A program made the position numbers and the translations under genes. A stretch of 32,039 nucleotides of DNA from a virus: IMG/VR virus record IMGVR_UViG_3300048672_001183, positions 1-32,039 of that record. The stretch is one strand, 5' to 3'. Positions 24,660 to 32,039 of the stretch are shown piece after piece. Position 1 is the stretch's first letter. Every line of letters starts with the position of its first letter. Under the pieces are notes generated by a model. That model saw only the letters and a list, made by a program, of their open reading frames with translations, had not been told where the DNA came from and did not search any database.

Positions 24660-25730
24660 TCATTCTTTCCATCCGGCTTCGATTTCTACTGTAAAGTTAT
24701 ACTTCGTCAGCGCTTTGATCTGACATTGAAGTTTTTGAAGATCCACCTCTCTATCGCAAATGAAGCCATCGTGCTCACAAAAATAAAACACCCCTTGCTC
24801 ATCAAGTGACAACCTGATGACATCGAGCACCTGCCGCTCAAGTGCAAAATAAACAGCCCACTTTTCTTTAGAGGTTTTGACAGGGTATCTGCGTTCAATG
24901 TATTTCCAAACCGTCTTGATGCAATCCCGCAGGGCACTAAGCATCGGATCGGTTTTAAGCCTTTCCATTTTCTTAACATCTTCACCCAACATATCGAAGA
25001 TGCTCTTGTATGGATTCGCCGAGAGCTCCGCACCATTGAACAACGAGTTTATCACGGTCTTCGCATCATCGTAGCTTAGATCCGAGAGCGCAGCGATGTG
25101 CCGTCGGAATAGATTCTTGTTGTTCAGATAGTGATCAATACCAGCGACGAGGGGTATCGGACATTCACAATACAGTGCCAGTTGTTTCAAGAGGGTTGGC
25201 GCTGCCGCTGAGATGTCATAGTTATACGAGAATCCGTGGCCTGTCCAGAAGGTTTTCTTCGCCATTCTAGACATCATTTGCAGCGGGTGCCAGAGCCGGC
25301 TTGATTTGTCGTTATAGACGAATACCTTAGCATCAAGCTGCGCACGAACAGCTTCACGAATCTGTGACTCCTGCTTTGAAAACAGGACGAGATCATCAAG
25401 ATCAATTGCCGGCTTGATGCCATTGCTGATCAGAAGCTCAGCAATGTAGTTTATGCCGAGAGGAAGAGATTTGTAGTAGCAGTAATGCGCCTCGTAATCT
25501 CTGCCGTGCTCTTCAACGGTCATCCCAGTGCTATAGTTGAATGTCTTAACGAAAAGCATCGTCCGGAGCCAATCGGCAAGTGGATGTCCCTTCGAGCCGA
25601 ACGCTTTGTTGATTTTGTGCGCCGACACAGCATACGATACTGTCGGAGACATATTTGTGACAGTGAAAGCAAGAGCCTTCTTGATTCGTTTTCCGACACG
25701 AGCATCGCTAAAATTTGGCTGATACATCAT
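24660..25730 (-). CDS. Miniature family-A-like polymerase (putative), 356 aa
   Basis: Three motifs in order resemble the family-A polymerase palm and fingers. Motif A: NYDISAAAPTLLKQLAL (D172). Motif B: DDAKTVINSLFNGAEL (K224, G233), close to AKTINFGVLYG of bacterial Pol I; the usual Tyr before the Gly is Asn. Motif C: FYFCEHDGFICDRE (H320, D321), against HDE in Pol I. D-to-K spacing is 52, as in Taq or E. coli Pol I (53), not T7 RNA polymerase (94). K-to-D is 97, shorter than about 122. No exonuclease domain is present, and 356 aa is far below the usual 550 or more. The start at 25730 overlaps the GIY-YIG stop (ATGATG; AAGGTGG upstream). Function, DNA or RNA synthesis, is inferred. Confidence 0.58.
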   Translation of the reverse strand: MMYQPNFSDARVGKRIKKALAFTVTNMSPTVSYAVSAHKINKAFGSKGHPLADWLRTMLFVKTFNYSTGMTVEEHGRDYEAHYCYYKSLPLGINYIAELLISNGIKPAIDLDDLVLFSKQESQIREAVRAQLDAKVFVYNDKSSRLWHPLQMMSRMAKKTFWTGHGFSYNYDISAAAPTLLKQLALYCECPIPLVAGIDHYLNNKNLFRRHIAALSDLSYDDAKTVINSLFNGAELSANPYKSIFDMLGEDVKKMERLKTDPMLSALRDCIKTVWKYIERRYPVKTSKEKWAVYFALERQVLDVIRLSLDEQGVFYFCEHDGFICDREVDLQKLQCQIKALTKYNFTVEIEAGWKE

Positions 25731-26167
25731 ACCACCTTTGGCAGTGCAAGGACACATTCGTCGATGTATTCGTCAAGCTTAGCAAGCTGCTGTAGAAGAA
25801 TGTCCTTTGCGAGCCGATGTTGCTTCAGCTTTGTTTGTGCAGGATTTTCGAACAAGCTTACAACCGGGTCATTTTTGCTTCTCTTGTTCAAGCAAAAAGG
25901 ATTCGACTTCTGCAAAGCGATCTGATGTTTTTCTTCTTTGAGGGCGCCGTCGATAGTTTCGTGCTCAGACAATGAGGCTCGTGACCAACCAGTTGGTGTG
26001 ATCCCGGCTCTAAGATGGATGCCAGTGAATCCTTGGGCACGATAGCAAGCATTGATTGCGACGCCAGAGCCCCAATAGTAATCGGTGCCGAAGTCGCCGA
26101 TAAGCGAGTGCTTACCAATGTAGAAGTATCCAGAGGTGTGTGAAATACGATAGACGAAGTGTCTCAT
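25727..26167 (-). CDS. GIY-YIG endonuclease, 146 aa
   Basis: The start MRHFVYRISHTSGYFYIGKH has both halves of the signature (FVYRI and FYIGKHS, residues 4-21). YWGSGVAINACYRAQG (about 31-46) corresponds to the 'YxGSGxxL' segment of phage SegE-like GIY-YIG enzymes. A Glu in ALKEEKHQIA (about E78/E79) and Asn in FCLNKR (N94) fit the metal-binding Glu and downstream Asn. The C-terminal 45 residues are a Leu/Lys-rich helix, perhaps DNA-binding. It is not closely related to the other two GIY-YIG proteins. The start at 26167 has AAAGGGA 5 nt upstream; this site can be sequestered by the leader RNA. The stop overlaps the polymerase start. Confidence 0.75.
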   Translation of the reverse strand: MRHFVYRISHTSGYFYIGKHSLIGDFGTDYYWGSGVAINACYRAQGFTGIHLRAGITPTGWSRASLSEHETIDGALKEEKHQIALQKSNPFCLNKRSKNDPVVSLFENPAQTKLKQHRLAKDILLQQLAKLDEYIDECVLALPKVV

Positions 26168-26173
26168 AGAGTC

Positions 26174-26298
26174 CCTTTCTAGGTTAGGATTACCATCCGC
26201 CGCCACAGTGGATGGGAGACAGATTGAACGAGGGTCCTAGAAAGGTCTGACTTTGCATCAGGGGAGCGTGGCGGCTTCACCCTCGTTCAATCTGTCTC
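26174..26298 (-). ncRNA. Structured 5' leader RNA: 19-bp stem, kissing loop, anti-Shine-Dalgarno
   Basis: Read on the minus strand. Stem 1 is a perfect 19-bp pairing of 26298-26280 (GAGACAGATTGAACGAGGG) with 26234-26216, enclosing a 45-nt loop. Stem 2 follows at once: CCATCC (26215-26210) with GGATGG (26198-26193), with an 11-nt loop holding GTGGCGGC (26206-26199). Loop 1 holds GCCGCCAC (26275-26268), exactly complementary to loop 2, a possible kissing pair. Loop 1 also holds CCTTTCTAGG (26245-26236), exactly complementary to CCTAGAAAGG (26183-26174), which contains most of the Shine-Dalgarno of the GIY-YIG gene. Translation of the GIY-YIG/polymerase operon is thus likely RNA-controlled. Stem 1 begins 6 nt after the promoter's TAAATA. 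Confidence 0.75.
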
Positions 26299-26301
26299 GT
26301 G

Positions 26302-26315
26302 TCTATTTATAGCGC
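26302..26315 (-). promoter_or_regulatory. Putative promoter of the GIY-YIG/polymerase operon (GCGCTATAAATAGA)
   Basis: On the minus strand this reads GCGCTATAAATAGA, the consensus with two extra bases (AT) inserted before TAAATA. The 19-bp stem of the leader RNA starts 6 nt after TAAATA, the same spacing as the hairpins after three early promoters, so transcription probably starts at the base of that stem. Confidence 0.5.
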
Positions 26316-26323
26316 CGGGCAAG

Positions 26324-26339
26324 AAAAGCCCGGGCTTTT
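26324..26339 (-). terminator. Hairpin after the small holin-like gene
   Basis: AAAAGCCCGGGCTTTT is a perfect 16-bp palindrome 3 nt after the stop codon of the 55-aa gene, continuing as TTTTCTT on the minus strand. It can fold as AAAAGC-CCGG-GCTTTT. An alternative 6-bp stem pairs CCGGGC (26315-26320) with GCCCGG (26328-26333). It separates the holin-like gene from the next promoter. Confidence 0.45.
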
Positions 26340-26614: not shown

Positions 26615-26626
26615 CCGCTAAATACA
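26615..26626 (+). promoter_or_regulatory. Early plus-strand promoter 1 (CCGCTAAATACA) with leader hairpin
   Basis: Perfect match to the consensus, inside a local palindrome GCGGATCCGC. A hairpin GACGG-N9-CCGTC (26630-26648) begins 6 nt after TAAATA. The rest of the leader, from GTCTCTAACC to the ATG, is the same as that of the next early unit at 27067-27095. It lacks the GTCCGCAC upstream element. Confidence 0.7.
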
Positions 26627-26671
26627 CTCGACGGCGAAAGATACCGTCTCTAACCTCTGAAAGGATCTAAA

Positions 26672-26869
26672 ATGCTGATTACATACACCCCAGAAACCGC
26701 TGCCGAGCTCGAGATTCAAAAGCTTCGTCGTGTGATCCACTTGATGGCGCTCGATGTTGTTGAAGCCCGCACAATGATTCGGCAGCTTCCACTCTCGCTC
26801 GCTGCTTGCCTGAAGCTGAATGATGCGCTTCGCTTGAGCATCACTGCATTCGCCGGAGATCAAGAATGA
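26672..26869 (+). CDS. Small hypothetical early protein, 65 aa
   Basis: MLITYTPETAAELEIQKLRR and the following RVIHLMALDVVEARTMIRQL form an amphipathic helical protein that may dimerise as a coiled coil. It is first in the rightward early transcript, preceded by AAAGGATCT 6 nt from the ATG. Its TGA overlaps the ATG of the next gene (ATGA), so the two are coupled. No domain is recognised. Position suggests an early host-takeover or regulatory role, which is inference only. Confidence 0.7.
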   Translation: MLITYTPETAAELEIQKLRRVIHLMALDVVEARTMIRQLPLSLAACLKLNDALRLSITAFAGDQE

Positions 26870-27555: not shown

Positions 27556-27605
27556 CGAAGTTGTCTCAAAAGTCCGCACAAAAACTGCTGATCCCGCTAA
27601 ATACA
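27556..27605 (+). repeat. 50-bp promoter cassette, copy 2
   Basis: Second copy of the element at 26997-27047, differing by one deleted A in the A-run and one T-to-A change before CCCGC. Here it is wholly intergenic and looks like the original arrangement, with the upstream element, core promoter and hairpin leader in series. Confidence 0.88.
27594..27605 (+). promoter_or_regulatory. Early plus-strand promoter 3 (CCGCTAAATACA)
   Basis: Perfect core with GTCCGCAC ending 18 nt before TAAATA. A hairpin TGTCAG-A5-CTGACA (27608-27624) begins 5 nt after TAAATA. It drives the long early operon from 27651 to 30212. Confidence 0.75.
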
Positions 27606-27650
27606 CTTGTCAGAAAAACTGACATCTTAACCCTCTAAAGGAAACTGAAA

Positions 27651-28100
27651 ATGGCTTATCAATTCTACTCCCTCTCGTTCAACGCTACACCTGGCTCACA
27701 GATCAAGTATCGTGAGCTTACAACCGGTGAGCTCACAACATTCACTGTGCCTGAATCAGGTGTTGTGCCGATCTATGTCGGCCAGACACGCCTCACTCTG
27801 AAGCACCGCTTGATGAAGCACCAGGCAGCACTTCGTCAGCTGATTCGCAAGGAGTCTGGTGAGCGAATTCAAGCGAAGAATTATCCGTTGTATCGATTCT
27901 TGTTCGACTTCGGTGTCAGCCCAGATCAACTTCAAATCACTTCGGCTTCTGCTCCGATCTCAGACTTCAGCTCGGCTTCTGAGCGTGCTCTGATCGCCGC
28001 ATTCAAGAACGCCGGCCTTCCGTTGATGAACAAGCTCTTGACCGGGGCTACGAAGCTTCCTCGCCCAGTGTTCGCTGGGATCCTGGCATCGCTCGTCTAA
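27651..28100 (+). CDS. GIY-YIG-like nuclease paralogue, 149 aa
   Basis: The motif halves are FYSLSF (about residues 5-10) and PIYVGQTRLTLKHRLMKH (about 40-57), followed by Glu in SSASERALIAAF (E111) and Asn in PLMNKLLTG (N127). The N-terminal half matches the minus-strand protein at 23248-23808 (TPG near residue 14, TVP, G-V--Y-G-T, then YPLYRFLFDFG against YPVYHFTREFG). It lacks that protein's charged C-terminal extension. GGAA lies 8 nt before the ATG. It is first in the longest early operon, so it acts early, unlike the terS-adjacent paralogue. Host DNA breakdown or recombination are plausible but unproven roles. Confidence 0.65.
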   Translation: MAYQFYSLSFNATPGSQIKYRELTTGELTTFTVPESGVVPIYVGQTRLTLKHRLMKHQAALRQLIRKESGERIQAKNYPLYRFLFDFGVSPDQLQITSASAPISDFSSASERALIAAFKNAGLPLMNKLLTGATKLPRPVFAGILASLV

Positions 28101-30671: not shown

Positions 30672-32039
30672 TTAATCCTGATCAACAATCAAGTAGCTGA
30701 AGTATTGAGTGTCTGAAGTATTTGTGCTTGTTACGGTGAAAGATGTGCCGGCTGTTCGGGCTGACACATAAAGGTGACCGACAGTTGCTGCTGAGCCTGG
30801 CACGAGGGTGCTGAAATACACTCGGCTATTTGCCTTGATCTTCGTATTCGTAACAACCTTCGTCCCAGCGACAAGCGTGTCCGAGCCGTGGATTGTTGCC
30901 GAAGTGCCTGGATTCACAGCCACAAGTCGAGCGCCCGCTTCAAGGAATGCCCCATACTCCATATGGGTGTATCCTTGCTCTCCAACAGTTGTGCCTGGCG
31001 CCTTGTATGGCTCTACTGAAAGTGGCGAAGTGCCGTAGAAGCCATCATAGAAAACCACAGAGCCGCTGTTGTCATTTGAGATTCCCCAGTATCGCCCGCC
31101 GATTGAGCCGTGTGTGCCAGTATTAGCAAGCACAAGCTGCGGATTCGAGGTGCCGGTGATATTCAAGACGGAGTTGAAGCCAGGGAATGCCATACCGCCA
31201 GTAAAGGACAGCAAACCAACGCCGGATCGGTAAAGTGTCACATCAGCAGCAGCCGCCCCAGAGCTGAATGAAAGCTCGCCAGTATTCGCTGCAGAGATGA
31301 TTGGGTAGTCTGGGTATGAAGCGGCGAACACATTTACTGCACCACCACCAAGATCTGGTCCAGACACCGCAAGTGAGCCATTCGTGACTTCTAGGCTGTT
31401 ACCATAGATATTCGGCGTCTTGAATTTGATGCCCTTAACTTCGCTGTCATTGATGTTCAGCGTATCGATGCCAAGGTCGTGGATTGTGAATGTTGGCGAG
31501 ACGAAGCCAGTGGCATTCAGCGTCGCTGTATTCGCAATGAACACATTCCCATTTGAATTCACATCAACTTCAGCGTTGTATGTCGGTGAGATCCCGTTAT
31601 CGGTGTATCCGCTGATCGCCTTGATGTTGTTGTAGTTCGAGCCAACAAGCACAATTTGTCGAGAAAGCGCATTCGGAAGGTTGTATGTCCAGATTGAATC
31701 GATCGAGCAACCATACGAATTCGTGAGCTTCACAGCGATGCCTGGGCGAGCAGCATCAATGTAGGTATTCACCTCAGACCCACCACCGACAATCGAGGTG
31801 CCGAAGCAATTCTCAAGGTGATACGAGATGTTGCAATTGTCAGCGGCACACGACGAGAGCAGCGTGTATCCGTGGGACTTGATGTAATACCCAGTGCCGA
31901 GCACATTATTTGCGTAGCACGAGTTGAATTGAGTTGAGGTGCCACCAACATATGGCGAGACCCGGATATCAATGAAGAATCCGTATGCACCGCACTCTTG
32001 AGCGACCAAATTCGTGTATGTTGAGACGATCGGCAACAT
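30672..32039 (-). CDS. Tailspike, C-terminal part (runs off the right edge)
   Basis: This gives 455 residues up to the stop. The first 195 residues correspond to the copy at 1-584 and continue a right-handed beta-helix (repeated short strands with N/G turns: CYANNVLGTGYYIKSHGYT, LENCFGTSIVGGG). The final 150 residues form a separate beta domain; the end (NSRVYFSTLVPGSAATVGHL, then VSARTAGTSFTVTSTN) resembles the C-terminal trimer cap of many phage spikes. The first codon here is not a start; it is internal codon 248 of the gene beginning at 1325. The stop lies 11 nt before the holin ATG. It binds and probably processes the surface polysaccharide of the host. Confidence 0.82.
   Translation of the reverse strand: MLPIVSTYTNLVAQECGAYGFFIDIRVSPYVGGTSTQFNSCYANNVLGTGYYIKSHGYTLLSSCAADNCNISYHLENCFGTSIVGGGSEVNTYIDAARPGIAVKLTNSYGCSIDSIWTYNLPNALSRQIVLVGSNYNNIKAISGYTDNGISPTYNAEVDVNSNGNVFIANTATLNATGFVSPTFTIHDLGIDTLNINDSEVKGIKFKTPNIYGNSLEVTNGSLAVSGPDLGGGAVNVFAASYPDYPIISAANTGELSFSSGAAAADVTLYRSGVGLLSFTGGMAFPGFNSVLNITGTSNPQLVLANTGTHGSIGGRYWGISNDNSGSVVFYDGFYGTSPLSVEPYKAPGTTVGEQGYTHMEYGAFLEAGARLVAVNPGTSATIHGSDTLVAGTKVVTNTKIKANSRVYFSTLVPGSAATVGHLYVSARTAGTSFTVTSTNTSDTQYFSYLIVDQD
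31456..32039. repeat. Imperfect terminal overlap, right copy
   Basis: Counterpart of 1-584, same orientation, no gaps, 23 differences. Base 32039 corresponds to 584, and base 31456 to base 1. Removing one copy gives a circle of 31455 bp. Confidence 0.9.

Follow-up and report, generated by a model that had tools for sequence, protein, structure and literature searches.

The window analysed here is the whole of a virus record of 32,039 b, the two ends of which (1-584 and 31456-32039) overlap by 584 bp with 96% identity. The genome is therefore probably ~31.45 kb in length and nearly complete, with the overlap reflecting either terminal redundancy or a mixed population; a tail-fibre-like gene appears to run across the junction of the two ends. 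The portal, coat and terminase of this phage are P22-like or related. A leader element ahead of a gene for a Seg-type homing endonuclease lies with a minus-strand gene block, continuous with the structural genes, on one side and a divergent plus-strand block on the other. The features of the locus, identified from sequence unless another basis is given in brackets, are the following:

26315-26339, plus strand (opposite to the element): intrinsic-terminator-like hairpin
26304-26311, minus strand: T4-late-type promoter box TATAAATA (also belongs to a genome-wide motif set)
26279-26298, minus strand: stem arm A, GAGACAGATTGAACGAGGGT (20-nt perfect inverted repeat)
26268-26275, minus strand: segment B, GCCGCCAC, complement of B'
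26236-26245, minus strand: segment C, CCTTTCTAGG, anti-Shine-Dalgarno (anti-SD), directly abutting A' (sequence and shuffles)
26216-26235, minus strand: stem arm A', ACCCTCGTTCAATCTGTCTC (inverted repeat with A)
26193-26215, minus strand: 6-bp hairpin CCATCC/GGATGG (26215-26210/26198-26193), right after A' (-8.1 kcal/mol)
26199-26206, minus strand: segment B', GTGGCGGC, within the 11-nt loop of the 6-bp hairpin
26174-26183, minus strand: segment C', CCTAGAAAGG, which includes the Shine-Dalgarno (SD) and lies 6 nt 5' of the ATG at 26167
25727-26167, minus strand: GIY-YIG (Seg-type) homing endonuclease gene, 146 aa, ATG at 26167 (phrog_314 and XZ1 homology)
24660-25730, minus strand: gene downstream of GIY-YIG, with SD AAAGGTGG (start within the GIY-YIG stop, ATGA)

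On the minus strand the segments follow one another in the order A, B, C, A', B' and C', and the three matching pairs form 20, 8 and 10 perfect Watson-Crick pairs, respectively. The stem had originally been predicted as 19 bp with a 45-nt loop; it is present, its size being 20 bp (26298-26279 with 26235-26216) enclosing 43 nt. The remaining pairings of that prediction were found as described, namely the 6-bp hairpin directly after the stem, the 8-nt complement between the two loops (B with B') and the 10-nt complement of the SD-containing segment (C with C'). None of the 44 bp in the element is a G-U pair, which is unusual for a constraint on RNA only. The last ~20 nt of the leader, C' included, have similar counterparts elsewhere among the leaders of the phage (CTAACCT..AAAGGA; best 6/2000 shuffles). 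No plus-strand gene lies ahead of the terminator-like hairpin at 26315-26339.

The protein of the downstream gene is ~356 aa in length and its start overlaps the stop of the GIY-YIG gene (ATGA, 25730-25727), making translational coupling between the two plausible. No homologue of this protein was identified among phages, plasmids, and viral and genome contigs, nor was any family match; the label 'polymerase' given to it earlier came from motifs read by eye and, having neither a family nor a sequence match, should not be used. AlphaFold prediction of the protein without an alignment returned a pLDDT of 35.

Late-type promoter box and predicted transcript start

The box TATAAATA (26311-26304) ends exactly 5 nt ahead of stem A, the spacer being GACAC. 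It has been described that the late box TATAAATA of phage T4 occupies positions -13 to -6 (PMC1524935), and the same placement here gives 26298, the first nucleotide of stem A, as the predicted +1. The transcript would thus start with stem A. Most other boxes of the phage are GCTAAATA, and they precede many genes, both structural and others. Late promoters of phage Aeh1 carry CTAAATA from -12 and are of the type GCTAAATA (PMC1524935, PMC2988020). Hexamers of TAAATA are positioned 15-150 nt ahead of a gene in 16 of 17 cases, against a background of 7% (P about 6e-18). Examples of GCTAAATA(C) boxes that resemble the Aeh1/T4 late promoters occur at 26619(+), 27040(+), 27598(+), 24443(-), 21064(-) and 18437(-). 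As with T4-type late promoters, the box lies about one turn upstream of the predicted start and is repeated before genes. The likeness to the T4 and Aeh1 promoters is in the box itself, whereas here it precedes many genes of a P22-like phage; a gp55-type sigma factor was not recognised among the non-structural phage proteins scanned.

Distances from box to ATG fall mostly into two groups, one of ~27-31 nt (mainly structural genes) and one of ~48-54 nt (mainly non-structural genes), and several leaders of the latter group carry a small stem exactly where transcription is predicted to begin. Several mRNAs of the phage may therefore begin with a 5'-terminal hairpin. At 142 nt, the distance for the GIY-YIG gene is the largest outlier of the phage. 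No late promoter was found inside the element (best internal score -4.0), so the on-switch known from T4 is missing here.

Complementarity and predicted folding of the leader

The matches within the leader were compared with chance using dinucleotide-preserving shuffles of the loop and flank. A match of at least 10 nt arose in 26 of 20,000 shuffles and one of at least 8 nt in 441 of 20,000, while both jointly arose in none (0/20,000); a stepwise scan of both strands of the whole window likewise placed the two matches jointly at the element only. Hairpins in which the end of the loop adjoins the 3' arm and pairs with at least 9 nt downstream were absent among 376 hairpins from 20 Markov genomes, and the same abutting topology with downstream pairing of at least 8 nt was absent among 294 hairpins from a 933-kb set of other phage DNA that is almost entirely TerL-related. 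The anti-SD match of the GIY-YIG leader is the longest among the phage leaders tested and was reached in 2/1000 shuffles; the anti-SD matches of the other leaders were reached in 88-998/1000. The original reading, in which the loop of a minus-strand 5' leader is the complement of the SD region of a GIY-YIG gene, is supported.

Relatives of the element were sought by exact matching of arm A in viral contigs, by blastn against phages and among the gene neighbours of 80 TerL relatives, and none was found; the element therefore has no covariation or conservation to support it. Two contigs that arose from a promoter-pattern search were considered as relatives and proved unrelated, as did an inverted repeat in L086, which is a GTTTAC-rich array.

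Nested folding of the leader region is far more stable than that of shuffles (z -5.7) and by itself leaves the SD partly open. The C:C' helix can stack on A with 0 nt between the helices, and the pseudoknot loops are 33 and 32 nt, where simple A-form geometry asks for about 5 and 9.4 nt; the modelled geometry of the leader thus fits an H-type pseudoknot. Stacking of C:C' on A would gain about -21 kcal/mol (a rough value). The pseudoknot state, in which the SD is hidden, comes out ahead by ~6-12 kcal/mol, an energy that rests on assumed loop penalties of 11-5 kcal/mol.

The B:B' contact is less clear. Its pairing is worth -16.0 kcal/mol and displaces ~15 kcal/mol of hairpins, so that gain and cost are about equal and B:B' is marginal. 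With stem A formed, the 6-bp hairpin sits at the base of a helix of ~55 Å and B is tethered 3 nt from the helix top, so that an intramolecular kissing loop would be strained, with B held at the top of the 20-bp stem and the hairpin at its bottom. The kissing loop originally envisaged is not supported as a stable intramolecular contact, being both strained and near-isoenergetic with its rivals. On this model, B:B' might pair once the small hairpin has opened, or might join two separate molecules.

The GIY-YIG gene and related leaders

A match to phrog_314 (homing endonuclease, E 4.5e-5) was obtained for the GIY-YIG protein, and none to the Pfam GIY-YIG model; AlphaFold without an alignment returned a pLDDT of 40. 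Two further ORFs, 23808-23248 (-) and 27651-28100 (+), have no HMM match and are GIY-YIG-like by eye (FYIGETTMSLAGRWSKH and IYVGQTRLTLKHRLMKH, respectively). Using tblastn among phage records, the sole relatives of the protein were Seg-like proteins of Vibrio phages XZ1 and phi-ST2. Identity to the SegE/GIY-YIG ORF of XZ1, the nearest database homologue, which matches Pfam SegE_GIY-YIG and adjoins uvsW, is 30% in the aligned part, and the DNA around the start codon is also similar between the two genes. The XZ1 leader carries TATAAATA at -49 within CCTCTAT...ATAGAGG, a hairpin that covers the SD; its nested fold is not above shuffles (z -0.8), and its 7-nt anti-SD match is weak (65/1000 shuffles). 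A Seg-type gene of Vibrio phage 1.081 (L097, 356-400) has its SD under a 14-bp stem, G-U allowed, around TATAAATA. Judged from sequence, phage 1.081 adds another clear instance of the T4 arrangement, and the XZ1 and 1.081 leaders are both of the kind described for I-TevI, segB and mobE. In the homologues of ValKK3, D479 and PVA23 the box is present and the exact anti-SD match is not beyond chance.

Leaders that sequester the SD have been described for a number of phage homing endonucleases, namely I-TevI, I-TevII, I-TevIII, T4 segB and Aeh1 mobE (PMC2988022, PMC3014915). The present leader resembles these in having a homing endonuclease gene (GIY-YIG or other), a nearby TATAAATA and an upstream sequence that pairs with the SD (PMC2988022, PMC3014915). 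In the described cases, however, the SD is covered by a simple hairpin, and late RNAs lack the 5' strand of that hairpin owing to where their promoter is situated (PMC2988022, PMC3014915). Here, by contrast, the promoter precedes the entire element, and the anti-SD is part of the loop closed by a 20-bp stem, as in a pseudoknot. Of the features of the class, a downstream endonuclease and an anti-SD match beyond chance are present. Two features that define the T4 version are absent, namely a late promoter yielding RNA without the inhibitory 5' strand and a plain hairpin covering the SD, so the element is better regarded as a functional analogue and possible descendant than as a plain member. The seg43(25) leader of Aeromonas phage 25, which also belongs to a Seg-type gene, likewise has a very stable hairpin just 5' of the site where ribosomes bind (PMC2988022), but that hairpin leaves the ribosome site uncovered and pairing of its loop with the SD is not reported. 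Leader pseudoknots control translation of gene 32 of phages T4/T2 and of rpsO of E. coli (PMC3014915); both differ in being bound by their own gene product, and the gene 32 knot is located upstream of the ribosome site, not over it.

The original prediction knew of no described element with such a layout. None was found here either, within a partial coverage of the literature, although SD-sequestering leaders of homing endonucleases as such are well described. The best reading is that the pseudoknot layout with the promoter outside is new and the SD-sequestering leader of a phage homing endonuclease is known. According to a 2010 review, the gene 32 pseudoknot of T4-type phages might still be the only viral one that autoregulates translation (PMC3014915). 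A second phage leader pseudoknot controlling translation, if real, would be a useful test case, and the element is small.

Candidate mechanism and alternative explanations

It is considered reasonably probable that the leader keeps translation off by default through an H-type pseudoknot over the SD of the Seg-type gene. The element would be the 131-nt 5' leader of a mobile GIY-YIG homing endonuclease gene, with the T4-late-type promoter TATAAATA setting the RNA start exactly at stem A. Pairing of A with A' during transcription would give a 20-bp 5'-terminal hairpin, and C, the last 10 nt of its loop, would pair with C' and the SD within it and stack on A to give the pseudoknot. As the ribosome site would be buried, translation of the endonuclease would be low by default, and that of the next gene perhaps likewise via the ATGA overlap. 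Repression might be relieved by RNase III cleaving the helix of 20-30 bp (the first candidate), by a protein that binds the leader, or by folding that lags behind the polymerase. B:B' may serve as an auxiliary contact that exchanges with the small hairpin. If the pseudoknot represses, a non-T4 phage would have a separate RNA solution for keeping a mobile endonuclease quiet. A full two-contact switch, where C:C' hides the SD and B:B' exchanges with the small hairpin (at near-equal energy) under a phage signal, is tentative and rather unlikely; if true, it would let the phage time the expression of both the homing endonuclease and its partner gene with no need for the choice between promoters on which T4 relies.

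The 20-bp stem might instead act mainly as a 5'-terminal mRNA stabiliser or RNase III site, with C:C' and B:B' minor or accidental. A short stem does follow the box at 26619(+), 24443(-) and 30638(-), at a distance of 5 nt, and at 27598(+), at 4-5 nt, and the leaders at 26619-26672(+), 27598-27651(+) and 24443-24391(-) have no anti-SD beyond chance; with a background of 7.7% for a stem at a given position, these small hairpins are only modest evidence. The joint absence of the B and C matches from 20,000 shuffles, and the position of C exactly against A' and exactly over the SD, make this explanation unlikely. Lower still is the probability that the repeats constitute a DNA element (operator, replication origin or nuclease site) and not an RNA device, which we regard as highly improbable: the repeats are perfect, lack G-U pairs and lie near divergent promoters, and the I-TevI promoter has an operator to which I-TevI itself is known to bind (PMC2988022), but cumulative GC skew over the whole window (minimum 5154, maximum 31941) has no extreme at the element, and C' is the SD itself with C as its exact partner, which matters for RNA only.

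The original prediction also envisaged a riboswitch-like or antisense-sensitive switch. A riboswitch is not borne out by Rfam, where covariance models for riboswitches, group I introns and ribozymes gave no match. Antisense control would involve a plus-strand RNA that ends at the hairpin 26315-26339 and acts on the leader by loop contacts, in the manner of IncB/IncI-alpha or ColE2-type plasmids. In the rep leaders of IncB/IncI-alpha plasmids, a loop pairs with the leader near the translation start; the pseudoknot so formed activates translation, and the system requires both a leader peptide and an antisense RNA, neither of which was found here. The terminator-like hairpin is on the appropriate strand and, as there are no G-U pairs, the same structure is possible in a plus-strand RNA (z -4.6). 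Against this, no phage-type promoter was identified on the plus strand within 25900-26330 (best 3.0 bits versus at least 12.9 for motif sites) and no sigma-70-like site within 25900-26300, sigma-70 rules being possibly not those of the host. An ORF of 22 codons (26258-26190) runs across the leader and, as read from its letters, has no recognisable SD, so that a leader-peptide gene with an SD is not apparent, and the downstream gene, for which no family or homologue was found, is not recognisable as a Rep. With no promoter found, antisense control is disfavoured and seems very unlikely.

By analogy with T4 gene 32 and 43 mRNA, the leader could also be a translational operator bound by a phage protein, be it the endonuclease or the protein encoded by the gene after it, which we consider quite unlikely. 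The downstream protein has no recognised family, which weighs against it; in its favour, the operon encodes at least one nucleic-acid enzyme, and T4 gp32 and gp43 are known to bind a leader pseudoknot and a leader hairpin, respectively (PMC3014915). Such an operator is compatible with repression by the pseudoknot, for which it would supply the missing switch.
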